Source of the DNA: Oscillospiraceae bacterium
GTDB taxonomy: Bacteria > Bacillota > Clostridia > Oscillospirales > Ruminococcaceae
Direction of reading: 5' to 3'
Length of the DNA: 64,000 nucleotides
NCBI GenBank assembly: GCA_017828975.1
Contig: JAGAJN010000034.1
Span: 1 to 64,000, forward strand
Shown here: positions 11,341 through 64,000 of the stretch, piece by piece
Layout: the number at the start of each line of letters is the position of its first letter
Position numbering within the stretch: position 1 is the stretch's first letter
Translations under genes and position numbers: made by a program
Notes under the pieces: model-generated
Databases searched by the model: none
What the model saw: only the letters and a program-made list of their open reading frames with translations
What the model was told of the DNA's origin: nothing

Positions 11341-11352
11341 ATTGATTGCTCC

Positions 11353-12252
11353 TCAAAAAATATCCAGCATACTGTCAAGATATATTTCTTCTCTTACCTG
11401 CAATTGATACTCGGGCTTGGTCATGTAATAGAGAAGAAATTCCAATATCAATGCGCTTCCAAGCCCCCGCCCTTCTATCTTGAAATTAGAAAATCCCATC
11501 GGCAGATAGATGTTTATGATGTCGTTAATGCCGATAAATGCGGGATTTTTCATTGCTTTTGAAAAACGGTAGCCGCTGCTTGCATCGGGGGCTGTGCAGC
11601 GGTGGTCGGGACATATTTCTCCGAGATTTTTTCGGCTGACATTTTCGTAACAGCGTTTTCTGTTTTTACAGCCGAAATCGCAGCATTCGTTGCAGAGAAA
11701 TTCGGTTTTTTCCTTTTGTACTTCGGACAATTTTTCCAGCTTGTCAAAGGCTTTATTCAGCCGAAAATCGGGGACAACATAACGGAAATCATCACGTTCA
11801 GTTTCGCTTAAAAACTGCCTGAAATCCGTCAGAACTTTGGTGGTCGATGAAACAAAATAAAGCTCGGGATAATTTGCTTTCAGATAGTCCAAAAGCAGCT
11901 CCGAACAGATAATGACGCCGTTTCTGACACCATTGTTTTCACTGAACATTTTGCAGAGAGCATTGCATTTTCTGTCCGAAAGATGCTCCTCTCCGAGCAG
12001 CGAGTTGCTGAATGTCAGACGGGCGGAGATGTTGTATTCCCGCATAAGGTCAAGGACATCATTGGGGTCGCGGTCACCGAATCCCACACGTCCGCCGCCC
12101 CAGATACAATCGGACGGTGCGCCGTAAACCGAACCTATGTCACACCACTCGTAAAAGTACTCTCGGTGTTCACGGAAAAGCGGCAGAAAGACCTTGTACA
12201 GCTCATAAAACTCAAACAGCCCCGGAAGGTGATAATATGCCGTGTTTTTCAT
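11353..12252 (-). CDS. Cys-rich U32-like protein of unknown function
   Basis: A 299-residue soluble protein I cannot assign firmly. It has a TIM-barrel-like alternation, and FLCNECCDFGCKNRKRCYEN then ICPDHRC form a cluster of seven cysteines that could hold an iron-sulfur centre. The layout resembles distant peptidase-U32-like proteins (the UbiU/YegQ group), which also use C-terminal cysteines. Other traits are WGGGRVGFGDRDPNDVLDL and a C-terminal INIYLPMGFSNFKIEGRG, the last like the FKIEGR motif of U32 proteins. The ATG at 12252 is used because the upstream extension overlaps the cyclase gene and reads as its shadow. Only 5 bp separate it from that gene. Confidence 0.55.
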   Translation of the reverse strand: MKNTAYYHLPGLFEFYELYKVFLPLFREHREYFYEWCDIGSVYGAPSDCIWGGGRVGFGDRDPNDVLDLMREYNISARLTFSNSLLGEEHLSDRKCNALCKMFSENNGVRNGVIICSELLLDYLKANYPELYFVSSTTKVLTDFRQFLSETERDDFRYVVPDFRLNKAFDKLEKLSEVQKEKTEFLCNECCDFGCKNRKRCYENVSRKNLGEICPDHRCTAPDASSGYRFSKAMKNPAFIGINDIINIYLPMGFSNFKIEGRGLGSALILEFLLYYMTKPEYQLQVREEIYLDSMLDIF

Positions 12253-12257
12253 GATCG

Positions 12258-12851
12258 TTATTCCTTGATAAGTATCGCTCTGCATGGAGCACCGTCCGAA
12301 CCGCCGAGATTGATAGGAGCGGAATTCAGCAGATATACGCCCTCCTCTACACCCCATAGTCGGATACCTTCAAGGAGGACTACCTCTGCTCCCAGCAGCT
12401 CATAATGTACCTGAGCGGGTGCGTTCAGCGGTCCGACGGTCTGCGACTCATTTCCCAAAAGGACAATGTTTTCTTTTGTGAATACCTTTGCTGCCTCAAT
12501 TGTAACAAAAGCGTCGCCGCCGATAAGAATACGCTTTGCAGCTTCTTTATCCATGCTTCTTGCTTTGTCAATGACAGACTGCGCTGTTTCAGCCGTAACA
12601 GCACCCTCGGCAAATGTAACATAGCATTTCCCGATTAGCTTTTCAAGGTCTATCATATCGACTGTCCTTCCGTCCTTATAGAAGTGATAGGGTGCGTCAA
12701 TATGTGTTCCGTTGTGTGCGCACATGGAAAGGGCGGTGAGATTATAAATGCTTCCGTTTTCTATATTTTCCCGCACATATCTTACGGGCGGTTCGTCACC
12801 GGGAAATACCTCACAGCCGAATACTTCCTGTGAGATGTCATATATTTTCAT
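12258..12851 (-). CDS. Cyclase family protein (kynurenine formamidase-like)
   Basis: A 197-residue metal-dependent hydrolase of the cyclase family. HNGTHIDAPYHF is the HxGTHxDxPxH metal-binding signature, and LLEGIRLWG plus PINLGGSDGAPCRAILI fit the C-terminal family motifs. Family members open or close amide or lactone rings; kynurenine formamidase is the best-known activity, but no tryptophan genes are near. The start is placed at ATG 12851, where the typical MKIYDISQEVFGCEVFPGD opening begins and AAAGGA lies upstream. It is the first gene of the leftward operon with the U32-like, Nudix and DUF554 genes. Confidence 0.87.
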   Translation of the reverse strand: MKIYDISQEVFGCEVFPGDEPPVRYVRENIENGSIYNLTALSMCAHNGTHIDAPYHFYKDGRTVDMIDLEKLIGKCYVTFAEGAVTAETAQSVIDKARSMDKEAAKRILIGGDAFVTIEAAKVFTKENIVLLGNESQTVGPLNAPAQVHYELLGAEVVLLEGIRLWGVEEGVYLLNSAPINLGGSDGAPCRAILIKE

Positions 12852-47859: not shown

Positions 47860-47947
47860 GGAGAGGTATCGAAGCGGTCATAACGAGGCGGTCTTGAAAA
47901 CCGTTTGCCCACAAGGCACAAGGGTTCGAATCCCTTCCTCTCCGCCA
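47860..47947 (+). tRNA. tRNA-Ser(UGA)
   Basis: A class II tRNA. The acceptor arms GGAGAGG (47860-47866) and CCTCTCC (47937-47943) pair perfectly. The anticodon loop CTTGAAA places TGA at 47895-47897. It has a long variable arm (GCCCACAAGGC) and a T arm with GGTTCGAATCCC, and CCA is encoded at 47945-47947. Confidence 0.97.
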
Positions 47948-47982
47948 ACTTTTCCTTAATATGTGTTTTGAGTTCACCATTC

Positions 47983-48072
47983 GCAGAAATACCCAAGTGG
48001 TGAAGGGGCTCCCCTGCTAAGGGAGTAGGTCGGGAAACCGGCGCGAGGGTTCAAATCCCTCTTTCTGCGCCA
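47983..48072 (+). tRNA. tRNA-Ser(GCU)
   Basis: The acceptor arms GCAGAAA (47983-47989) and TTTCTGC (48062-48068) pair. The anticodon loop CTGCTAA gives GCT at 48016-48018. It has a long variable arm, a T arm with GGTTCAAATCC, and encoded CCA at 48070-48072. It reads AGC/AGU and follows the first tRNA by 35 bp in one transcript. Confidence 0.97.
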
Positions 48073-54374: not shown

Positions 54375-55259
54375 ATGAAGAAAATAATAGTATTGATACT
54401 GTCAGCGGCTCTCCTTTGCTCTTGTTGGAATGAAAAGTGTCAGCCGGAATCCCCCGCAGAAACTTTAGTATCTACGGAAGCCGCCGTAAGCGAACAAACT
54501 AACCTATCCGACGAAAGTAAAATCTCCCAAAAAGAGGAATTTACATACCCGCCTGTGGAATACACTTTGGAAGATCAGACGGTATTTTACGGCACATTCC
54601 CACCCATCAAGAAAATTTTCGAGAATAACGCCGAAAAGCTTGCAGACGTTCCTCTTTGCGGACAAGCCGTGCTGGACGAGTACATTTCCCCCCGCTCCTA
54701 TGCTGCCGACCGTGCCGAAGTTCTCCAACAGGTAAAGGAGCTGTCCGACGAGATATGTGCGGGCTGCGAAACCGATGCAGAGCGTCTTTACGCCATCTGC
54801 GACTGGGTCAGCAGGAATATTTACTATGATTTTGATGCCCGAAACAGCGAGGTCACTGCCGAGGTGATCTGCCTGAAAAATGTTCTGGAAACCAAACGTA
54901 CCACCTGTGCGGGCTATTCCACCTTTACGGCGGCTTTGTGCGGTGCGCAGGGGATTGTCTGCGTCGATCTTCGGGGCGGCAGCTCGTCGGAGGGCTGGAA
55001 GCGTTCCGAGCTGCCTGACGCACCTATGAACCACGAATGGAACGGTGCGGTCATTGACGGGAAATGGGTTTTCTGCGACACCACCTGGGCTTCGCAGAAC
55101 ACTTACGAGAACGGTGCATTTTTCCAAAACGAACCGCTGACGCCCTTTTATTACAGTGCGGATTTCGGTCAAATGAGCATCGAGCATCGCATCGACATTG
55201 CGGAGTTCAGGGATTTTTACGGTATTTTTGAAAATAATTCTCCGCAAAATCAAGGATAA
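54375..55259 (+). CDS. Lipoprotein with a transglutaminase-like domain
   Basis: A 294-residue secreted protein. The lipobox LLCSC follows a short signal peptide (KKIIVLILSAAL), so the mature protein would be lipid-anchored through Cys17. A transglutaminase-like cysteine peptidase fold occupies residues 115-280, with Cys in TTCAGYSTFTAALCG, His in MNHEWNGAVIDGKW and Asp in VFCDTTWAS. Such proteins may cut or crosslink cell-wall-linked peptides; the substrate is unknown. ATG 54375 has AAAGGG nearby. Its last 53 bp overlap the convergent HAD gene. Confidence 0.88.
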   Translation: MKKIIVLILSAALLCSCWNEKCQPESPAETLVSTEAAVSEQTNLSDESKISQKEEFTYPPVEYTLEDQTVFYGTFPPIKKIFENNAEKLADVPLCGQAVLDEYISPRSYAADRAEVLQQVKELSDEICAGCETDAERLYAICDWVSRNIYYDFDARNSEVTAEVICLKNVLETKRTTCAGYSTFTAALCGAQGIVCVDLRGGSSSEGWKRSELPDAPMNHEWNGAVIDGKWVFCDTTWASQNTYENGAFFQNEPLTPFYYSADFGQMSIEHRIDIAEFRDFYGIFENNSPQNQG

Positions 55260-55995
55260 ATTCCGCAAATTTTCCCGTTTCGGCATTTTCACAGACCATT
55301 GCGGGAATGTCACTGAGGGCGGCGTTCAGTCCGTTGTCGGGGACAAGTGCAATGTCCGCCGAAAGGAGCATTGGAATATCAAACTCGCTGTCCCCTGCGG
55401 CTATGGTCGTTTCGGGGGACAGCCTTTTTTTCAGCCGTTCAAGGGCATTTCCCTTGTTAAGTCCCTTTGGAAGAATGTAGACCTTTGAACCGTTTGTCAG
55501 TATGTCAACGGTTTGTGCGTCAAGCTGTGAACCGAGCAGAGAAACGGTTTCATCGGGCTTATCGGACTTTGTAAAGATAAAGGAATCGTCCACAAATCTG
55601 ACCTCAAAGGAGCGGTTTTTGTCCGTTTCAAGGAGATTTTTACCCCGTTCAAGCTCACTTATGGCGGTGTTTATCAGCTGTTCCGATTCCGCTCGCCAAG
55701 CCTTGTCGGGGACGCCGTTTATCAGCAGCGTTCCGCCGTTTGAGGTGACAGCCATGGGCGGTTCATCTCCGAATATGGATATGCGCCGAAACTGCTCCAC
55801 CGAGCGGGTGGTTATGGGTATGGGAAGTATCCCCGAGGACAGTCCATTCAGCTTTTCGACCGCTTCGGGTGTCATATAGGACAGTTTTTTCCAAATGCCG
55901 TGTATGTTTCCCTCTTCCACGCAGATATGGGAGCCTTCGGCTTTTTTGTAGCTGTGTATAAGCGTGTTGTCAAGGTCGAGAGCCAGAAGTATCAT
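55207..55995 (-). CDS. HAD family phosphatase of the Ter cluster
   Basis: A 262-residue HAD phosphatase with a C2-type cap. Motif I LALDLDNTLI provides the nucleophile Asp and acid-base Asp, motif II is TTRS, and motif IV is AAGDSEFDIPML. It is the last gene of the leftward Ter operon. In Ter clusters a HAD enzyme is predicted to dephosphorylate a PRPP-derived intermediate; this is established only as a comparative-genomics prediction. ATG 55995 has AGGAG. Its 3' end overlaps the lipoprotein gene on the other strand. Confidence 0.88.
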   Translation of the reverse strand: MILLALDLDNTLIHSYKKAEGSHICVEEGNIHGIWKKLSYMTPEAVEKLNGLSSGILPIPITTRSVEQFRRISIFGDEPPMAVTSNGGTLLINGVPDKAWRAESEQLINTAISELERGKNLLETDKNRSFEVRFVDDSFIFTKSDKPDETVSLLGSQLDAQTVDILTNGSKVYILPKGLNKGNALERLKKRLSPETTIAAGDSEFDIPMLLSADIALVPDNGLNAALSDIPAMVCENAETGKFAEFILDFAENYFQKYRKNP

Positions 55996-56008
55996 GGTTA
56001 AACTCCTT

Positions 56009-56200
56009 TCATCTGAGAAAATCGGGCAGCAGGGCAATTATCATTGTCAGCGATATGACAAATATCATCAGAAAAGCATTTGCGGCATATTTGTAACGCT
56101 CCTTGCCGCTCTTATTATATGTCCTCCGCAGACGGACAGACAGTATCAGGGAAATAAAGCATACGGGTGCGGCGATGATGAAAAACATTCCGTCCTTCAT
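56009..56200 (-). CDS. Small two-helix membrane protein of the Ter cluster
   Basis: A 63-residue protein with two hydrophobic helices (4-22 and 42-60) separated by a basic loop (RLRRTYNKSGKERYKYA). It overlaps the PRTase fusion stop as TAATG and precedes the HAD gene by 13 bp. I do not recognise a family. It could anchor the biosynthetic enzymes to the membrane; this is inference. Confidence 0.65.
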   Translation of the reverse strand: MKDGMFFIIAAPVCFISLILSVRLRRTYNKSGKERYKYAANAFLMIFVISLTMIIALLPDFLR

Positions 56201-58410
56201 TACACATCACCGTGGCTTTTTTTACCCAATGTTCGGATAATTCCGCATGCCTTGTATCGGGTGAGAGGATAGCGCTTTACGGGGACGTTCTTTTCCTCCG
56301 CCAGCCTCAGCAGATGGCTGACACAGCTTTCGTCCTCCAAATTGTCCGCAATGAGCAGACAGTAGGGGACACGCCGCAGCAGAACTCGTGTGGCTTCCCC
56401 AAGCCCCGGCTTAACAAGATTGATGTCGTCAATGCCAAAGTCGGCGGCGATACGCTTTACCTCGTCAATGCCCGTTGTGTCGGGACGTGCTTCAAGGGGC
56501 AGATCGGCGGGAGCAAGCCGCATAGCTGTTTCTATCTTACTGATATATTCACCGGACAAATCTTCATCTTCCAAATCGGAATGGTAAGCCGCACCGTGGA
56601 AGTCCTCATCGCCGATAATGTCGCTGCGGAGAAATGTTCTGCTCATCAGCCCCGAAACGGTGGAATTCAGAATGGAGCTGGGGATAAGAATGTCCTTGTA
56701 GGTGCCGCAAAGCTCCGTGATATTTGCGGGGTCGGCAAGCACGGCAAGGCTGCATGACACGCCCTTATAATCGGCAAGGGCTTCGGTGAGAGTGCCGAGA
56801 ATAGCGCCCTTTCCCGTCCAGCCGTCCACGAAGCATATCTCCTCGGGGCGGTGCTGCGACAGAATGTAGGACATAGCGTTTTTGTCAATGCCAATTCCCC
56901 TGATTATGGAAATGGTGTAATGCGCCGCATTCACGCCAAAACGGGCTTTCAGGCAGCGTTTCATCAAAATTCCCACAGGTGTTCCCGCACGGGCAAGGGA
57001 CACAAGGGCGATCTTTCCGTCCGGGTGCGTCTTACAGAGCCTGTTGCAGACGGAAACTACCGCTTGGGCGGTTTCAAAAGCGCACCGCTCCAGAGCGTCC
57101 TTGTATTCCTTCAGATATTTCTCCGAGGGACGGTATTCCAGCGGGAGCATCTCCGAATAGTGTGCGCCCTGTTCGATACGCCGCTGACGTTCCTCGGCGG
57201 GCAGCGGTTCAATAAGTCCCGTTATGTCCTTCAAAAGAACGGTAACGTCCGACGGGGAATAGGAGCAGGGCATTGCCGCTTTCCAGCTGACGAAAAAGAA
57301 GCTGTCCGTTTCGGGAAAAGCGTGAGTCAGCTGCGCAAAGCCGTCCCTTTTCGGGCTGTCGGTCACGGCGATAACAAGGTCGTATCTATCGGTATTATAA
57401 AGGTAGGTAGTTCGGTCTTTATCGTAAAAGCTTTCAAGGGTCATTCTTGAAAACAGGGGGTAATTCTCTTTGAAATGGGGTTCGATGGGGCTTCTGGTGG
57501 TGGAATGGGTGTACACCTCCGCACCATGTTCACGCAGCTTATCGGCGGCGTTTATGGCGGGGTACATACATTCCTCCGTGCCTATAACGGCAATCTTTTT
57601 CCCCGAAAGCTGAATGTTCTTGCGGCTGATTATCCTCAGAAGCTGTTCGGCAAGGCTGTCGCAGGCTTCCGAATATTCGTCCGAAGAAACGCCGCTTCTA
57701 GGGTCAAGCATGCCCTTTATTCGGAGATATTCGCAGTTCGGAGAGGTTTTCCGCTTCGGTATTTCCTTTGGCGGTTCGGGTATCAAACTGTCCCTATGAT
57801 CGGACATATCTATTTTCATAAGCCAATAGAAATCATATCCCGGCTCGGCAAGCTCATTCGTCCGCTCCTCGGACATTCCGTTTAGAATCGAGCAGGCGGA
57901 ATATGTTATCCTGTTCGGTATCTTCGGGTTGGCTTTCAGGGCATTTATGAAATTTACAATAGTTTTGCCGGTGGTTATTTCGTCCTCAACGAAGATAACT
58001 CTTGTTACGCCGTCAAACAGCCTTGCGGTGCTTTTGCATTGCAGAGTCTGCTCGGTGGCATGGGAATGTTCCTCGGAAAATTCGGCGGCGTATTCGCAGT
58101 TTGTGAGCTGCTCTCTTGTGGTGTGGATATAGCGTGAGCCGTGAAACGCCCTTGCAACGGCAGCACCCACAGCGGTCGCCGTTTCCGCAAATCCGATAAA
58201 GAGGATATTTTCCGCTGCTTCACGGACATTTTTCCTCACCTCGTCCGCCAGCTCGGAAAACAGCCGCAGGGGAACATCGGGGGAGATGGGAAAATGCTTT
58301 CCCTGACACTTATCCACAAGGATAAAGCTCCTTTTGGCGTTGTTTTCCCGACGTGAAACGCAGGCAAGCTGTTCGGCGGGGAAGGTCGATTTGTTACAGA
58401 GAAGCTTCAA
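56200..58410 (-). CDS. PRTase/TRSP/StiP/PELOTA-like fusion enzyme of the Ter cluster
   Basis: A 736-residue protein joining four units seen in Ter clusters. Residues 15-205 are a phosphoribosyltransferase with ILFIGFAETATAVGAAVARA, IHTTRE and the PRPP loop VEDEITTGKT. Residues 265-400 are the TRSP domain with STTRSPI at 303-309. Residues 418-620 are a StiP-type PRTase with HYSEMLPLE, LVSLARAGTPVG, TISIIRG and FVDGWTGKGAI. Residues 650-730 resemble the PELOTA-type RNA-binding module (LVKPGLGEATRVLLRRVPYC). These are usually two genes. It is predicted to build a ribosyl-linked metabolite. The gene overlaps the ATP-grasp gene by 17 bp. Confidence 0.88.
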   Translation of the reverse strand: MKLLCNKSTFPAEQLACVSRRENNAKRSFILVDKCQGKHFPISPDVPLRLFSELADEVRKNVREAAENILFIGFAETATAVGAAVARAFHGSRYIHTTREQLTNCEYAAEFSEEHSHATEQTLQCKSTARLFDGVTRVIFVEDEITTGKTIVNFINALKANPKIPNRITYSACSILNGMSEERTNELAEPGYDFYWLMKIDMSDHRDSLIPEPPKEIPKRKTSPNCEYLRIKGMLDPRSGVSSDEYSEACDSLAEQLLRIISRKNIQLSGKKIAVIGTEECMYPAINAADKLREHGAEVYTHSTTRSPIEPHFKENYPLFSRMTLESFYDKDRTTYLYNTDRYDLVIAVTDSPKRDGFAQLTHAFPETDSFFFVSWKAAMPCSYSPSDVTVLLKDITGLIEPLPAEERQRRIEQGAHYSEMLPLEYRPSEKYLKEYKDALERCAFETAQAVVSVCNRLCKTHPDGKIALVSLARAGTPVGILMKRCLKARFGVNAAHYTISIIRGIGIDKNAMSYILSQHRPEEICFVDGWTGKGAILGTLTEALADYKGVSCSLAVLADPANITELCGTYKDILIPSSILNSTVSGLMSRTFLRSDIIGDEDFHGAAYHSDLEDEDLSGEYISKIETAMRLAPADLPLEARPDTTGIDEVKRIAADFGIDDINLVKPGLGEATRVLLRRVPYCLLIADNLEDESCVSHLLRLAEEKNVPVKRYPLTRYKACGIIRTLGKKSHGDV

Positions 58411-59446
58411 AGCTTGTCACCTCGCTGTCCTCAGGAAGCTCCAACGGTGTTTCCACATAAGTGACCCTTGACGGAACACGTTTGAGCATCCACTTTTTAT
58501 CAATGCCAAGCAGCTGATTTACCGCAAGATTTGGGATATTCACCCCCGCGCCCGTGCAGGAAAGCTGTATTCCACCCGACATTCTGGTGTTCACCTCCAG
58601 AAGATAGGGGCTGCCGTTGTGATATTTAAACTGAATATTGCAGGGAGTTTTCAGTCCCGTATATTCAAAAAATCGTTCGCAAAGGGAGATAATTGAGTGG
58701 TCATAGCGAATTTCGGCAATTCGTGAACCCGTCTTAAACCTCGGAATGATAATGTTTCCGTCGGCGGTCATCAGACAGTCAACACTGACCTCACAGCCGT
58801 CCAGATAGGGCATTACGATGAAATTCGGCAGACTTTCCCGCTCGGAAAGGGCTTCAACAGCCTGTTTATAGGAAATTTTCATTCCCGGCTGGACAAAAAG
58901 CCCGTTGTAACCCGCCATTCTGTCGTCAATAACACGAAAGCTGACAGCACCCTCATCGTGGGCAAGCTTTATGCAGGCACGGCAATTGTTGGCGGTTATC
59001 TTTTCGTAAGAGTCCTTGAATTCGGCAACATTTCGGATAACGTATCTTTCGGGAATGACCTCGGGGGCAAACTCGTTGAAAAGTCGGTATGTACAGTCCT
59101 TGTCGGACAGATTCATCAGCTTGTTGTAATCATAATCCGCCAGCACGGAAACGCCTATCTCCTCAAATTCCGTCACACGTCTGATAATTGCGGTCATTTT
59201 TCTTCGGGGGATAAACAGCCTTATTTTATGCTCCTTGCAGAAGCTCAGGCAGTAGTTTACATATTCGTCGTCATCGGGAATGGACGGTTCCTTGTACCAT
59301 TCGTCACATGCCAGCTTGATAACGGAATCAACATTCTCGTTGCTGCCAATGACGTAAAAATCTATGGTCGTGTCCAGCTTTATAAGATTGATGATGTGGT
59401 ATGCGGTGGAGAACCAGTGGTTGAGCCAGATCCTTACAGTTTTCAT
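58394..59446 (-). CDS. ATP-grasp enzyme of the Ter cluster
   Basis: A 350-residue ATP-grasp ligase of the Ter-associated type. The Lys of ACIKLAHDEGAVSFRV, the acidic residues of YLDGCEVSVDCLM and LLEVNTRMSGGIQL form the nucleotide and metal site. The N-terminal domain begins RIWLNHWFSTAYHIINLIK. It would join a carboxylate to an amine or other nucleophile using ATP. It overlaps the PRTase fusion and follows the C-C lyase by 36 bp. The substrate is unknown. Confidence 0.9.
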   Translation of the reverse strand: MKTVRIWLNHWFSTAYHIINLIKLDTTIDFYVIGSNENVDSVIKLACDEWYKEPSIPDDDEYVNYCLSFCKEHKIRLFIPRRKMTAIIRRVTEFEEIGVSVLADYDYNKLMNLSDKDCTYRLFNEFAPEVIPERYVIRNVAEFKDSYEKITANNCRACIKLAHDEGAVSFRVIDDRMAGYNGLFVQPGMKISYKQAVEALSERESLPNFIVMPYLDGCEVSVDCLMTADGNIIIPRFKTGSRIAEIRYDHSIISLCERFFEYTGLKTPCNIQFKYHNGSPYLLEVNTRMSGGIQLSCTGAGVNIPNLAVNQLLGIDKKWMLKRVPSRVTYVETPLELPEDSEVTSFEASL

Positions 59447-59482
59447 TTTGTACCTCTTTATATAAATCTTGCGGGAATTTTC

Positions 59483-60523
59483 TTATTTTACGCCGTAAAT
59501 CGATGCCAGAGTAACGGTCTTTCTCGCCCAATTTTCGTGGACCTTGACCTCGTTCATACGTCCTCCCGACGGGCTTTTTGCTACTGCAAAGCCTTCGCCG
59601 TCGTTCCAGTTGAGTATGCTGAGGGCGTCCTTGTAATCCTCCTCGGAAACGGTGAGGGATTCGTTGATAACGGGCAGCTGTGTCGGGTGGATAGCGGTTT
59701 TTCCGATGAAGCCGTTTAATCTGTCAAGCTCCAGCTCGGCACGAAGTCCCTTTGCCCACTGTCCGTCGGGGTCGTTTCCGAAATATTCCCAGACAGGCGC
59801 AGATACCACATAATCCCGCCCAAAAACATTGAAAATATCCGCAAGTGTATTTCTCACAACGGTAATATCGTAAATGGTGCGGTCGGCAGGTCTGCGGAAA
59901 CCGAAGCGGCTGCAAAAATCATTTCCGCCCACACGGATATTCAGCACCAGCTTGGAGATGGTGTCCACGGCGGATTTTATTTCGGTAATTGCCTGCAAAC
60001 GGCTTTTCAGGTCGATGACCTCGGTGGATTCGAGGATAGGCATACAGTAAATATTCTGCTTGCCGCTGTTTATCTCCGTCATTACTTCAATGTAAGAAGC
60101 GGCGTTGCGGCGGTCGAATTTTGGCAGGATAAAGCCTGTGAGCAGCTCGTAATCGCATATTTTTTCGTAGATACGCAGCAGTTGTTCGGCGGAACGCACC
60201 CTTACAAACATCAGCGGCAGTTCGCTTTTGCGGATATTTTCGAGGATAAGCTCCCGATAGATGCTTTCAAAGGTGTTATAAAGGCAGTTTTCCGCTTCCT
60301 CCACGAAATTGTCCCCGACGCTGTCCTCTAAACAGAGGGACACGGAGCGCAGTCCCGCATACTTTTTCGATGTGATAAAGCCCGCAGCCTTGGGGTTCAG
60401 GGCAGGGCAGTAGAGCAGTCCGCCGAGGGCATATTGGAGAACGAATTTATCGTTATGCGCCTTGTCGGAACGCTTGGTAAAGCTTGATGATGAGGATATT
60501 CTTGCTGTATTTACAGAGTCCAT
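59483..60523 (-). CDS. C-C bond lyase (HpcH/HpaI/citrate lyase-like) of the Ter cluster
   Basis: A 346-residue TIM-barrel enzyme of the citrate-lyase beta/HpaI group, in the Ter-associated C-C lyase branch. ALYCPALNPKAA-type N-terminus, SVSLCLEDSVGDN and the metal acidic pair, RVRSAEQLL, and KTAIHPTQLPVINESL are family marks. It would make or break a C-C bond of a 2-keto acid or acyl substrate. It starts at ATG 60523 with AAAGGA and lies 17 bp downstream of the TerD fusion gene. Confidence 0.9.
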   Translation of the reverse strand: MDSVNTARISSSSSFTKRSDKAHNDKFVLQYALGGLLYCPALNPKAAGFITSKKYAGLRSVSLCLEDSVGDNFVEEAENCLYNTFESIYRELILENIRKSELPLMFVRVRSAEQLLRIYEKICDYELLTGFILPKFDRRNAASYIEVMTEINSGKQNIYCMPILESTEVIDLKSRLQAITEIKSAVDTISKLVLNIRVGGNDFCSRFGFRRPADRTIYDITVVRNTLADIFNVFGRDYVVSAPVWEYFGNDPDGQWAKGLRAELELDRLNGFIGKTAIHPTQLPVINESLTVSEEDYKDALSILNWNDGEGFAVAKSPSGGRMNEVKVHENWARKTVTLASIYGVK

Positions 60524-60540
60524 TATTTTGTCCTTTCAAA

Positions 60541-61803
60541 TCACACAATTTGCAAGCCTGTGCTTTCGCAGAGCCTTTTCAGACCGTCACGGTAGCCTGC
60601 GCCGACGCAGCAGAGCTTCCAGCTGTTCTTGTATCGGTAGAATTCCACGGCAACTATGGTCGTTTCCATCAGCAGATTATCGGGGGAGAAAACAAGCGTA
60701 TTCTTGCCCTTTAGGGTGAATGTCAGCCCCTTGACCTTTGAGAAATTCCGTCGGGGGTCGTCCCCGTAAACCGAATAGGCAAGGGAGATCCTTTCGATAT
60801 GCTCGGGAATTTTCGTGAGATCGACGGTGACCGTTCTGTACGGGCTTTTGTCGTCATAGCTGACACTTCCGCACTTTGAGCGGGTGTTTCCGAAGAACAC
60901 AAGGCAGTCGTCCTCGGTGGCTTTTGCGTTTTTGTCAAGCATAAAGGTGTAGGCATCTATTTCCATATCCGAGGGGAAATTTGCCGAAAAGCTTATCTCG
61001 ACCTTGTTTCCCAGATAATCCTCCGCAGAGATGCGCTGACCTCTTGTGAGGGGGACGGTCGCACCCGTAGGTGCAGTCCTTTCCGACGGACGGGACACCT
61101 TGTTGTAGCCGGAAAGCTGATCTCTCGTCAGCACAACGGAGCGTCCCTCGCTTGGTATCGGTGTCATATTGGGTGCAGCCTTGAATACGGCAGCTCCGTC
61201 TGTGAAGGAGCTTGCATCGCCGTCAGCCGTTCCGAAAATATACGCACGCCTGTTCAGCTCCGATTTGAAGATAACATCGCCGTAAAGATATGTACCCCGC
61301 CGCAGCGGCTCGGAGGTTATGGTGACCGTTGAAGCGCCTGCGGGTATCCTTGCGGGGGAGAAGCTGACGTCCTTGGCGGTGGAGATTATCTCCGTTTCCG
61401 ACGGGACGCAAAGCTCCATTTTGAAGGTGTTTTTCTGTCCGTCGGGGAATTTTCCCAGCTTGATGTTTACGGGAACGCCCCAATAGCCGTCCTCGCTGCC
61501 CATTCCTCGGACAGCGCCGATTATCTCCACATTTTCCGCAGTAACTCCGGGTGCGGTACAGACGATAGCGAAGGAGGCATTGTCACGGGGCAGCCCCGTC
61601 AGCTCAATGCGCAGATTTTTCAGGCGGACATTTGGTGCGGAAACTGTCAGCACTGTGCCGCTTTTCACCCAGAGAGTGGTATTGTTTCCCATGACCGTGC
61701 ATTGCTTTGTGATGACAAAGGGTCCTTCAAATTCGCCGCAGGGAAGTGAAGCCGTGCCGCCTGTGGTGACGTTATTCAATATCTCGCTGACCGTATCTGC
61801 CAT
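60541..61803 (-). CDS. Beta-helix-like/TerD fusion protein
   Basis: A 420-residue protein. Residues 15-110 read as a right-handed beta-helix (GNNTTLWVKSGTVLTVSAPN, then VRLKNLRIELTG), like pectate-lyase repeats. A middle part (145-230) is beta-rich. Residues 275-415 form a TerD-like domain ending in CCVGAGYRDGLKRLCESTG. The TerD calcium motif GDDE is not conserved here, unlike in the two neighbours. It may bind a partner or surface rather than calcium. ATG 61803 has GGGGGAG; the longer reading has none. It heads the biosynthetic operon behind the promoter at 61863-61891. Confidence 0.82.
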   Translation of the reverse strand: MADTVSEILNNVTTGGTASLPCGEFEGPFVITKQCTVMGNNTTLWVKSGTVLTVSAPNVRLKNLRIELTGLPRDNASFAIVCTAPGVTAENVEIIGAVRGMGSEDGYWGVPVNIKLGKFPDGQKNTFKMELCVPSETEIISTAKDVSFSPARIPAGASTVTITSEPLRRGTYLYGDVIFKSELNRRAYIFGTADGDASSFTDGAAVFKAAPNMTPIPSEGRSVVLTRDQLSGYNKVSRPSERTAPTGATVPLTRGQRISAEDYLGNKVEISFSANFPSDMEIDAYTFMLDKNAKATEDDCLVFFGNTRSKCGSVSYDDKSPYRTVTVDLTKIPEHIERISLAYSVYGDDPRRNFSKVKGLTFTLKGKNTLVFSPDNLLMETTIVAVEFYRYKNSWKLCCVGAGYRDGLKRLCESTGLQIV

Positions 61804-61862
61804 ATTATCTCCCCCTTTCCCGCTATTTTTGATACTTTTCACTCGGTATCGCATACATTAAC

Positions 61863-61891
61863 ATTATACCATTTTGTAAAATGAAAATCAA
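61863..61891 (-). promoter_or_regulatory. Sigma-A promoter of the Ter biosynthetic operon
   Basis: On the minus strand TTGATT (61886-61891), 17 bp, TATAAT (61863-61868) with TGG before it, 60 bp before ATG 61803. Confidence 0.85.
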
Positions 61892-61914
61892 GGGCATTTT
61901 TGGAAATTCTCACA

Positions 61915-61948
61915 AAAAAGCTCCCCCGATTCAAAGAAACGGGAGAGC
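61915..61948 (-). terminator. Terminator between the TerD genes and the biosynthetic operon
   Basis: On the minus strand CTCTCCCG pairs with CGGGGGAG (one G-U) and is followed by CTTTTTTG. It lies 16 bp after the TerD stop at 61964. Confidence 0.88.
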
Positions 61949-61963
61949 CGAAAAAAACACGTA

Positions 61964-62548
61964 TTAAACGTTTACGCCGTAAGCCCTGCAAAGAGCCTCC
62001 AGACCGCCGCTGTAACCTGCGCCCACGGCGTTGAACTTCCACTCGCCGTTGTAGCGGTAAAGCTCGCAGACAACCAGAGCGGTTTCAATGGAGAATTCTT
62101 CCATAAGGTCATATCTGAGCATTTCCTCGCCGCTCATATCGTCATCGCTGTTACGCTTGCAGACTCTTACGAAAGCGTTGGAAACCTGTCCGAAATTCTG
62201 ATGACGTGCAGCTGCTTCGTGGATAGTTACGGTAATAGCTATCTTTGCGATGTTCTGAGGAAGCTTGTTGAAGTCAATAAGGATAACCTCGTCATCGCCT
62301 TCGCCCTCGCCCGTGAGATTATCGCCCGTGTGAACGACTGCTCCGTCATATCCCGAAAGATTGTTGTAGAAGATGAAGTCCTCGTCCTTTAACACCTTGC
62401 CGTTTTCGCCCAGCAGGAATGCACAGGCGTCCAGGTCGAAATCGTAGCCGCCGTCATAGCTGTTTGTATCCCAGCCAAGACCGATAAGAGCTTTTGTCAT
62501 TGATTTGTCAAGACTTACTCTCTGTCCCTTTGAAAGATTTACACCCAT
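61964..62548 (-). CDS. TerD family protein
   Basis: A 194-residue TerD-domain protein. It opens with [14 protein letters not shown] and [24 protein letters not shown] and the calcium-binding segment [16 protein letters not shown] are intact, as is the C-terminal [16 protein letters not shown]. TerD proteins bind calcium, act in the cytoplasm near TerC-like membrane proteins, and confer resistance to tellurite, some phages and other stresses. It is 18 bp downstream of a second TerD gene and followed by a terminator. Confidence 0.96.
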
Positions 62549-62566
62549 TTTAATTCCACCCCTTCA

Positions 62567-63157
62567 TTACATATAGCGCTTAGCAACATCTGAGATGCCG
62601 TTGGCGTCGATGCCTTCGCCTACTGCGCTGAACTTCCATTCGCCGTTGTATCTGTAAACCTCGCCGAATATCATGGCGGTTTTTCCGCTGTAATTGTCGG
62701 TGAGATTGTACTTGCAAAGCTCCTTGTTGGTATCTGCGTCAACAATTCTGATAAATGCGTTCTGTATCATTCCGAAATGCTGTGCTCTTTCTCTTGCCTG
62801 ATAGATCGTTACCGCAACAACGATCTTTTCGCAGTACTGAGGAACGTCACGCAGATCTATCATGATCTGCTCATCATCGCCGTCGCCTGCGCCTGTCAGG
62901 TTGTCGCCCATATGCTGTACGGAACCGCTCTTGTGCTTCAAATTGTTGTAGAAAACATAGTCGTCCTTGTTTGCAAGCTTGCCGCCTGCGGAAAGGAGAA
63001 GTGCGGAAGCGTCACAGTCAATATCCTGGGGCTTGGGTGCGAAAAGCCCTCTCTTCTGAGCGACTTCGTCCCAGCCAAGACCTACTATAACTCTTTTCAG
63101 AGATGAATTTCCTTTTGTAAGGTCAACCTTCTGACCTTTTTGAAGATTAACAGACAT
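62567..63157 (-). CDS. TerD family protein
   Basis: A 196-residue TerD protein, paralogue of the next gene. It has VNLQKGQKVDLTKGN, DIDCDASALLLSAGGKL, the calcium segment LTGAGDGDDEQIMIDL and FSAVGEGIDANGISDVAKR. The extra loop GWDEVAQKRGLFAPKPQDID, missing in the other copy, marks it as the TerD-E-like variant. It lies 30 bp downstream of the AIM24-like gene. With its neighbour it could form hetero-oligomers; this is inference. Confidence 0.96.
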   Translation of the reverse strand: MSVNLQKGQKVDLTKGNSSLKRVIVGLGWDEVAQKRGLFAPKPQDIDCDASALLLSAGGKLANKDDYVFYNNLKHKSGSVQHMGDNLTGAGDGDDEQIMIDLRDVPQYCEKIVVAVTIYQARERAQHFGMIQNAFIRIVDADTNKELCKYNLTDNYSGKTAMIFGEVYRYNGEWKFSAVGEGIDANGISDVAKRYM

Positions 63158-63187
63158 ATTTTACAGTCCTTTCTTTATGGTTATGTA

Positions 63188-64000
63188 TTATGAAACGGTG
63201 GAAGTTACGCTGACCGAGCTGATCATGGAATTATACACCTTGATGGTGGGAGCAAGCCAGACCTGTCCCGTTCCTCGGTAAACATTCACAAGTCCCTCGC
63301 CGCTGGCAGCAGAGCCGATAAGCGTCTTTGCGGAACGTTCAACGGAGAAGTCAATGCCGCCTGTTCGCAAAACGGCAAAGTTTCCGTCCACCTTTAGCAC
63401 ATCATTGTTCAGCTCGATTATGTCAATTTCCGACATGGGAACGGCACATTCGAGAACGGCAAGTCCGGGACCTCTCAGGGAAGTCTGGAAGATACCCTCG
63501 CCGCCCAACGCCGCCGAGGAAAGATTTTTCTGCATAAAGGCACTGACATTTACGCTGCCCTGCGCCGCAAAAAACATTCCCTTGTCAACGATTATCTCTT
63601 CTCCCGCCTGAAGCTCAAGGGTGAGAAGGTGCTTGAAGGTGGGTTCGAGAACGACCATTCCCGTGCCTCTGTATTCGGGCTGTGCAGCAGCTTCGCCCGT
63701 TACTGCGCCTGTGAACATTCTGCCGAGGAGATTTCCCGGAGTAACGCCCGAAACCATTTCAAGATTTCCTTGGAAATAGCTCATAGCGCCCGGTTCTACC
63801 TTAACAGCATCGTTTTCGAGATATATTGCCGCCTGACGCACACGCATATTCTGCTTTTCCATAAAGTACATTCTCTCCGCAGAATAGGGGTCAATGCCGC
63901 CTAACAGCTTCTGATATTCGAGAATGTCAATTTTCATATTCTTATTGGAGCTGGTGTCTATTATCTTGATATTTTCACGGGTACCCACTGCGTTGTAATT
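63188..64000 (-). CDS. AIM24/TIGR00266 family protein, 5' end beyond the window
   Basis: A beta-rich protein of the AIM24 (TIGR00266) family with triplicated Gly-rich blocks such as VEPGAMSYFQGNLEMVSG, GTGMVVLEPTFKHLLTLEL and VYRGTGQVWLAPTIKVYN. The reading frame is open through the window edge, and no ribosome binding site precedes the GTG at 63988 or the ATG at 63937, so the true start probably lies outside. These proteins often accompany TerD genes; a role in membrane or array organisation is only conjecture. It is upstream of the two TerD genes on one transcript. Confidence 0.85.
   Translation of the reverse strand, partial: NYNAVGTRENIKIIDTSSNKNMKIDILEYQKLLGGIDPYSAERMYFMEKQNMRVRQAAIYLENDAVKVEPGAMSYFQGNLEMVSGVTPGNLLGRMFTGAVTGEAAAQPEYRGTGMVVLEPTFKHLLTLELQAGEEIIVDKGMFFAAQGSVNVSAFMQKNLSSAALGGEGIFQTSLRGPGLAVLECAVPMSEIDIIELNNDVLKVDGNFAVLRTGGIDFSVERSAKTLIGSAASGEGLVNVYRGTGQVWLAPTIKVYNSMISSVSVTSTVS

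Follow-up and report, generated by a model that had tools for sequence, protein, structure and literature searches.

The window analysed here, 64,000 nucleotides of an Oscillospiraceae genome (GenBank assembly GCA_017828975.1, contig JAGAJN010000034.1, positions 1 to 64,000), ends inside a genuine Ter-type operon that is joined to a predicted biosynthetic unit, a variant of the known Ter system. The operon probably serves a stress response of this gut bacterium, a membrane and phosphorylation half being joined to a biosynthetic half that would make a small ribosylated compound. Its points of interest are two phosphoribosyltransferases (PRTases) fused in one chain, a calcium-type pump in a genome without a TerC match, and a TerD protein with a putative beta-helix N-terminus (beta-helix-TerD).

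Gene content and layout

An original prediction, made from the letters of the window, had named TerD proteins, an AIM24-like protein, a C-C lyase, an ATP-grasp enzyme, PRTase units, a HAD phosphatase and a small membrane protein in one leftward array, and had read them as Ter genes with a compact, fused, nucleoside-type biosynthesis pathway. Open frames and a Pfam scan recovered all of these parts on the minus strand at 55207-64000, and the reading is supported by the Pfam families and by a 736-amino-acid protein of four domains. Every array protein scores above its curated Pfam cut-off except the small protein, and chance matching is excluded as the source of the array. Its features are as follows.

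55207-55995, minus: HAD-IIB phosphatase, 262 amino acids, last gene of the row, ATG start; Pfam Hydrolase_3, 1.4e-10
56009-56200, minus: small protein, 63 amino acids, two hydrophobic segments by hydropathy; matches no Pfam family
56200-58410, minus: fused two-PRTase protein, 736 amino acids; PRTase_2, TRSP, StiP and PELOTA_1 by Pfam
58394-59446, minus: Ter-type ATP-grasp (ATPgrasp_Ter); PF15632, 1.4e-35; ExNxRMSG motif present
59483-60523, minus: C-C bond lyase, a CitE/HpcH-like TIM barrel; PF15617, 5.5e-102
60541-61803, minus: TerD-fusion, with a NosD/beta-helix-like N-terminus and a divergent C-terminal TerD; start set by the congener; PF02342, 2e-27
61863-61940, minus: terminator-like stem with T tail (61940-61920), then a promoter-like site (61891-61863, 10/12), before the TerD-fusion gene; L005 6941-6864
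61964-62548, minus: TerD protein; PF02342, 4.2e-77; motifs present that we take to be calcium-site motifs
62567-63157, minus: TerD protein; PF02342, 5.3e-78; GDNLTG motif present
63188-64000, minus: AIM24 family protein, 296 amino acids, starting past the window edge at contig position 64078; PF01987, 8.1e-41 for the whole protein (6.5e-41 in the window scan)

In the fused protein PRTase_2 covers residues 23-187 (3.2e-45), TRSP 251-355, StiP 383-626 (1.2e-93) and PELOTA_1 647-726 (6.2e-28). It carries the PRPP-loop-like motifs EDEITTGKT and DGWTGKG (PRPP, phosphoribosyl pyrophosphate); the lyase has EDS, GGxDF and HPxQ, and the HAD protein DLDNT, K and GDSEFD, the meanings of these and of the ATP-grasp motif being assumed from general knowledge. 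The lyase weakly matches malyl-CoA and citrate lyases among PDB sequences (best E 0.013), and its RipC-like NCBIfam match is far below cut-off; all SPP/HAD-IIB matches of the HAD protein are below theirs too. A TTG start at 56037, listed for the HAD gene, is probably too early, because the congener's protein has 262 amino acids.

The window edge splits the operon, which continues on contig C24 (109,032 bases). Past 64000, on the same strand, Pfam identifies the start of AIM24, another TerD, a calcium-type P-type ATPase, a kinase, a PP2C and a vWA protein, so that the window array is the second part of a one-strand row of 14 genes. A Ter-linked vWA gene, which the original prediction had proposed seeking there, is thus present, with further Ter-associated company. 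The vWA, kinase and PP2C genes together are what we take to be the TerY-P triad, and their sites DxSGSM, HxDLxxNN and SDGA, respectively, are present. Gaps in the row do not exceed 53 bases, apart from two, one of 206 bases ahead of the pump gene and one of 160 ahead of the TerD-fusion gene; from AIM24 to HAD, that 160-base gap aside, genes overlap or lie 13-36 bases apart.

A full TTGACA-17-TATAAT match lies before vWA and an 11/12 match before the pump, and a second transcription unit possibly starts at 61863-61940. Such consensus matches are hints only, because counts in the region are near those in shuffled sequence (promoter-like sites, 24 versus 17.8 +/- 4.5; terminator-like sites, 23 versus 22.2 +/- 5.5, i.e. 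no excess).

All four TerD matches in the genome fall within this operon, which also has the biosynthetic PRTases and HAD of Ter systems, plus C-C lyase and ATP-grasp. TerC (PF03741) and TerB (PF05099) gave no match in the 39-contig draft genome, which is 94.67% complete; the same searches were positive in 9 and 4, respectively, of 14 control genomes. A calcium-pump-like gene stands where the TerC gene would be expected. TelA occurs twice outside the operon, on contig C29, side by side with YceG, and on contig C39. Because TerC and TerB matches are missing and TelA and YceG lie elsewhere, this is not a classical terZABCDEF operon; the cluster had been called complete-looking, which holds for the enzyme set and fails for the classical ter genes, TerC among them, for which a search had been advised.

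Compared with the congener, eight cluster genes have ratios of nonsynonymous to synonymous substitution rates (dN/dS) of 0.007-0.152, the highest being that of the small protein, which the congener also has. Two neighbour genes outside the cluster have 0.058 and 0.170; three cluster genes fall below both of these, those for the C-C lyase and for each plain TerD protein, and the other five lie between them. The cluster is maintained, not unusually constrained.

Distribution of the enzyme module

Five Pfam families were counted over cut-off in the 14 controls: StiP in 1, PRTase_2 in 1, TerD in 2, C-C_Bond_Lyase in 4 and ATPgrasp_Ter in 12. Because controls often pass the curated cut-offs for the last two, only high scores were counted as real (C-C lyase >300 bits; Ter-type ATP-grasp >119 bits). 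StiP (PF11202) is patchily distributed, being over cut-off in 5 of 61 relatives, 11 of 391 class-sample genomes and 21 of 398 phylum-sample genomes, and below it in one further relative and two further class-sample genomes. These make 32 distinct StiP genomes; 12 more from 30 genomes chosen for beta-helix-TerD (15 of the 30 positive) bring the number to 44.

PRTase_2 is present in all 32 distinct StiP genomes and a strong C-C lyase in 30, G007 having weak matches only and G630 none. The lyase is not always beside StiP: G761 carries it on a separate contig, and G739 has lyase and PRTase_2 as a pair about 1 megabase from StiP. Likewise, the Ter-type ATP-grasp of G029 is on a different contig from StiP. 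Within the family, Ter genes lie beside the module in the StiP genomes G000, G001, G007 and G029.

Twelve further StiP loci came from genomes selected for beta-helix-TerD, hence a non-random set, with views bounded by contig ends; two of the 12 (L093 and L096) have TerD genes. A heavy-metal-type pump-like gene occurs in L095, L097 and L100 (Pfam scan in L095 only). After the free-standing module of L095 comes a uridine kinase/phosphoribulokinase-family gene (11344-12261; 5.8e-22), and proteins with similar N-termini are found at L097 2823-3740, L098 7292-8215 and L100 1978-2922, all in one genus. From its sequence family, this neighbour weakly favours a nucleoside-type product.

The fused PRTase protein

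Frames longer than 700 amino acids were found in 4 of the 44 StiP-positive genomes: G000, the congener G001 (the same 736-amino-acid frame, 91% identity), G1027 (another genus of the same family) and G267 (another family, same class). Domain content was checked with Pfam in G000, G267 and G1027 and with phmmer in G001. A sequencing artefact is ruled out by the congener's frame and by the G1027 and G267 frames with all four domains. The compact fused form, which had been read in this organism, is shared with the congener and recurs in two other genera, so it is not peculiar to it. On a StiP tree of 25 rows the fused label needs three changes, of which well-supported branches force only two (a first tree of 17 rows needed two); we therefore set aside a single origin, to which the tree could be fitted as one gain plus losses, and regard the fusion as recurrent. 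In the unfused relatives L007, L027 and L059 a mere 1-4 bases separate the two genes, so that loss of a stop would be an easy fusion route. Among plasmids, 2567 records match the fused protein, and 13 of the 15 matches listed lie over separate StiP and PRTase genes.

A phage origin of the fused form was considered on account of MT836648.1 (L059) and rejected; the only phage-collection hit with a long match, it is an 'UNVERIFIED', unannotated record in which PRTase and StiP are separate, and gives no evidence of the fused form in phages. Filed as Bacteriophage sp., it appears by eye to be a bacterial contig with a Ter locus.

StiP was aligned alone in 17 proteins, a full alignment of fused and unfused forms having been dropped when TRSP of the unfused proteins was placed against StiP. 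Columns D159, G160, W161, G163, K164 and G165 are invariant, a pattern that would suit PRPP binding better than proteolysis. A search of PDB sequences with the fused protein gave no PRTase match, the PELOTA part alone being matched: residues 661-727 weakly resemble L7Ae/Snu13 RNA-binding proteins (best E 0.002).

The TerD-fusion protein

A longer TerD-fusion frame of 437 amino acids, starting at 61854, has its TerD domain at residues 267-430, and its first 266 residues gave no Pfam match at a threshold of 10. A weak NosD match (2.7e-7), which at 29.5 bits is far short of the cut-off of 300, suggests that the N-terminal region is a beta-helix. The TerD part lacks GDNxTG, a motif present in the operon's other three TerD proteins.

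This N-terminal region occurs in 30 of 297 family genomes, spread over 12 of 126 genera. Of 18 loci inspected in these genomes, 10 have a P-type ATPase or homologue adjacent or within the array and 8 have the vWA-PP2C-kinase triad; seven (L063, L064, L065, L066, L071, L074 and L075) are without pump and triad, some views being limited by contig ends, and L068 is a partial contig carrying other TerD-type genes. The beta-helix-TerD protein is thus a frequent, not constant, partner of pump and triad. An association between beta-helix-TerD and StiP presence (Fisher test, p 0.005, 37-genome table) is not relied on, since some genomes of the table may not have been in both searches and kinship is uncorrected.

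Some of the lone genes have neighbours of their own: those of L063, L064 and L066 adjoin what by eye is a helix-turn-helix-regulator-like gene, and those of L071, L074 and L075 close a conserved run of non-Ter genes. At L027 7070-8305 a TerD domain has a different N-terminal part, with a P-loop-like GEPGTGRT seen by eye.

The pump and its shortened relatives

The operon's pump is an intact calcium-type P-type ATPase of 903 amino acids, with DKTGT, TGD, GDGVND and PEGLP all present. Relatives retain a vWA-PP2C-kinase-pump-beta-helix-TerD operon. Seven beta-helix-TerD loci, from genera g3 and g585, encode a short pump homologue, of 676-683 amino acids where complete:

L061 7496-9544: short pump homologue
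L062 10062-12098: short pump homologue
L070 7644-9680: short pump homologue
L072 10231-12261: short pump homologue
L073 7693-9744: short pump homologue
L076 7796-9835: short pump homologue
L077 10239-11768: short pump homologue, cut by the contig end

None of the seven has TGD, GDGxND, PEGLP or a full DKTG[TS]; L077 retains DKTGM, and some others the aspartate of that site. The two that were scanned, from L061 and L062, fall below the E1-E2_ATPase Pfam cut-off. From these motif losses we infer that catalytic activity has gone. The frames are open and conserved, and the triad is in view beside six of the seven. For the pairs L061/L062, L072/L076 and L070/L073 dN/dS is about 0.18-0.25, rough values since dS exceeds 1. 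These proteins may be pseudo-pump membrane sensors, which would suggest that the role of the pump in this branch can be sensing, not transport.

Interpretation and alternatives

On the reading that we favour, the membrane and phosphorylation half comprises the vWA, PP2C and kinase proteins, the calcium-type P-type ATPase, the TerD proteins and AIM24, and the biosynthetic half the C-C lyase, ATP-grasp, two PRTases in one chain and HAD phosphatase. Stress would shift the phosphorylation switch as well as calcium at the membrane. The lyase would shape a small acid, which ATP-grasp would join to an amine or another acid; the PRTases would then attach ribose-5-phosphate from PRPP and HAD would remove the phosphate. 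TerD-type domains might sense the compound or carry calcium, and the fusion may link both PRTase steps and hold them at a set ratio. We hold this to be the likelier account because of the observed gene content and order, motifs, purifying selection and recurrence: the family matches, the PRPP-loop-like motifs, the dN/dS values, the constancy of PRTase_2 and near constancy of the strong lyase in StiP genomes, a like enzyme set on an IncHI2 plasmid, the full-consensus promoter-like site before vWA and the uridine-kinase-family gene after a free module.

Several findings weigh against it. A Ter-type ATP-grasp was found in only 9 of the 32 StiP genomes; the other 23 have weaker matches, mostly in what we read as carbamoyl-phosphate synthase-sized frames. 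G007 has pump, TerDs, PRTases and HAD and neither a strong C-C lyase nor a Ter-type ATP-grasp, so that the lyase and ATP-grasp steps would be dispensable or replaced. In ten of the 12 further StiP loci, the 11-20 kb examined contain neither a TerD gene nor a calcium-type pump nor any triad gene, and the module may therefore have a role outside Ter. For the fused protein, HAD, ATP-grasp, TerD-fusion and small protein, dN/dS falls between the values of the two neighbour genes, and PADLOC found nothing beyond weak matches to kinases and PRTases. Finally, no identified product of Ter enzymes was found in the literature searched, mostly without subscription papers.

The two halves of the operon are separable, as relatives show. 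It is possible, if rather doubtful, that Ter in this family is split into two independent units: a TerC-less sensing unit of vWA, PP2C, kinase, P-type pump and beta-helix-TerD, in which a dead, still selected pseudo-pump would act as membrane sensor in two genera, and a free-standing biosynthetic unit, its PRTases at times fused, that would make a ribosylated signal. The window would then join both in one operon, and the beta-helix-TerD gene heading the enzyme unit would encode a candidate receptor of the product.

Three other explanations concern what the enzymes do. They might modify RNA and make no free metabolite, with PELOTA (L7Ae-like) holding the RNA and the PRTase parts inserting or swapping a base; the PELOTA_1 and L7Ae/Snu13 matches agree with this, and PELOTA is kept in all three fused proteins scanned. 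HAD phosphatase and ATP-grasp fit small-molecule chemistry instead, no RNA target was found, though none was looked for, and we consider the explanation unlikely. Less likely again is a plain tellurite or metal resistance locus with the enzymes as incidental neighbours. The TerD family, calcium-type pump and AIM24 would suit such a locus, and PMC12054061 reports effects of Klebsiella terC on Te(IV), Zn(II), Mn(II) and some of eight phages; however, the genome has no TerC or TerB match, the conserved enzyme genes lie end to end or overlap, and in other genera too the module is found next to TerD genes. That StiP is a cysteine protease, its Pfam and NCBI name, making the fused protein a PRTase plus protease, is highly improbable. 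Apart from the name, one histidine is invariant (17/17 rows) and two cysteine columns reach 14/17, the best found; no cysteine is invariant in the 17 proteins, so the name is unsupported, whereas D-G-W-x-G-K-G is invariant apart from x.

This compact five-gene enzyme unit, naturally fused and with the sought motifs present, is handy for heterologous expression and metabolite discovery. Since the unit stands apart from Ter genes in relatives and is headed by a TerD protein here, binding of its product by TerD is directly testable.

Neighbouring features

After vWA, upstream of the operon, come a divergent DUF815 AAA ATPase gene and a RelA/SpoT-domain gene (contig C24 71302-73328; L005 16303-18329), and then YchF. 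Two adjoining tRNA-Ser genes, with anticodons tga and gct, lie at 47860-48072 of the window.

Comparison with known systems

A TerD-centred Ter system, with a predicted product of its enzymes, was reportedly described by Anantharaman et al. in 2012. The yce operon of Bacillus subtilis is presumably a Ter operon with TerD and TelA families; in control searches of that genome TerD and TelA match as here, TerC matches, unlike in the window genome, and StiP does not.

In the portions available, PMC7824862 treats Ter as signal-making PRTases and HAD, with TerB and TerD as possible sensors, PMC7159879 lists TerD as a possible nucleotide-derivative-binding domain, PMC5822837 reports AIM24 in group I ter loci, and PMC9933665 states that the molecular mechanisms remain unknown. 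The names ATPgrasp_Ter, PRTase_2, TRSP and PELOTA occur in PMC13109261. The Ter genes of jumbo phage vB_AbaM_ME3, in the accessible text of the first of these, share PRTases, HAD and TerD as a proposed signal-making and sensing system, and one place in that phage matches the StiP part at 30%; the window operon differs in having a calcium-type pump and no TerC match. Phage genes were not noticed around the operon, no prophage search of the window having been made.

The Ter operon of G267 (L034) likewise has TerD, AIM24, a calcium-type pump, C-C lyase, a fused PRTase_2-TRSP-StiP-PELOTA protein (826 amino acids) and HAD in one array. It differs in having TelA and YceG inside the array, a separate StiP lineage and no Ter-type ATP-grasp match >119 bits.

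The ter region of an Escherichia coli IncHI2 plasmid (NZ_CP021209.1, L058) shares ATP-grasp, PRTase, StiP, an HpcH/HpaI lyase, several TerD, vWA, PP2C and a kinase-family gene, with an extra coding sequence, annotated hypothetical, at the position of HAD. PRTase and StiP are separate genes there, with 32% identity to the protein of the window; both TerC and TerB occur, the gene order is different, and the 20.9 kb annotation shown has no calcium-type pump or AIM24. Because this like, unfused enzyme set adjoins ter genes, we regard the window operon as a variant of a known system, of which the IncHI2 ter region is the closest named relative among those inspected.

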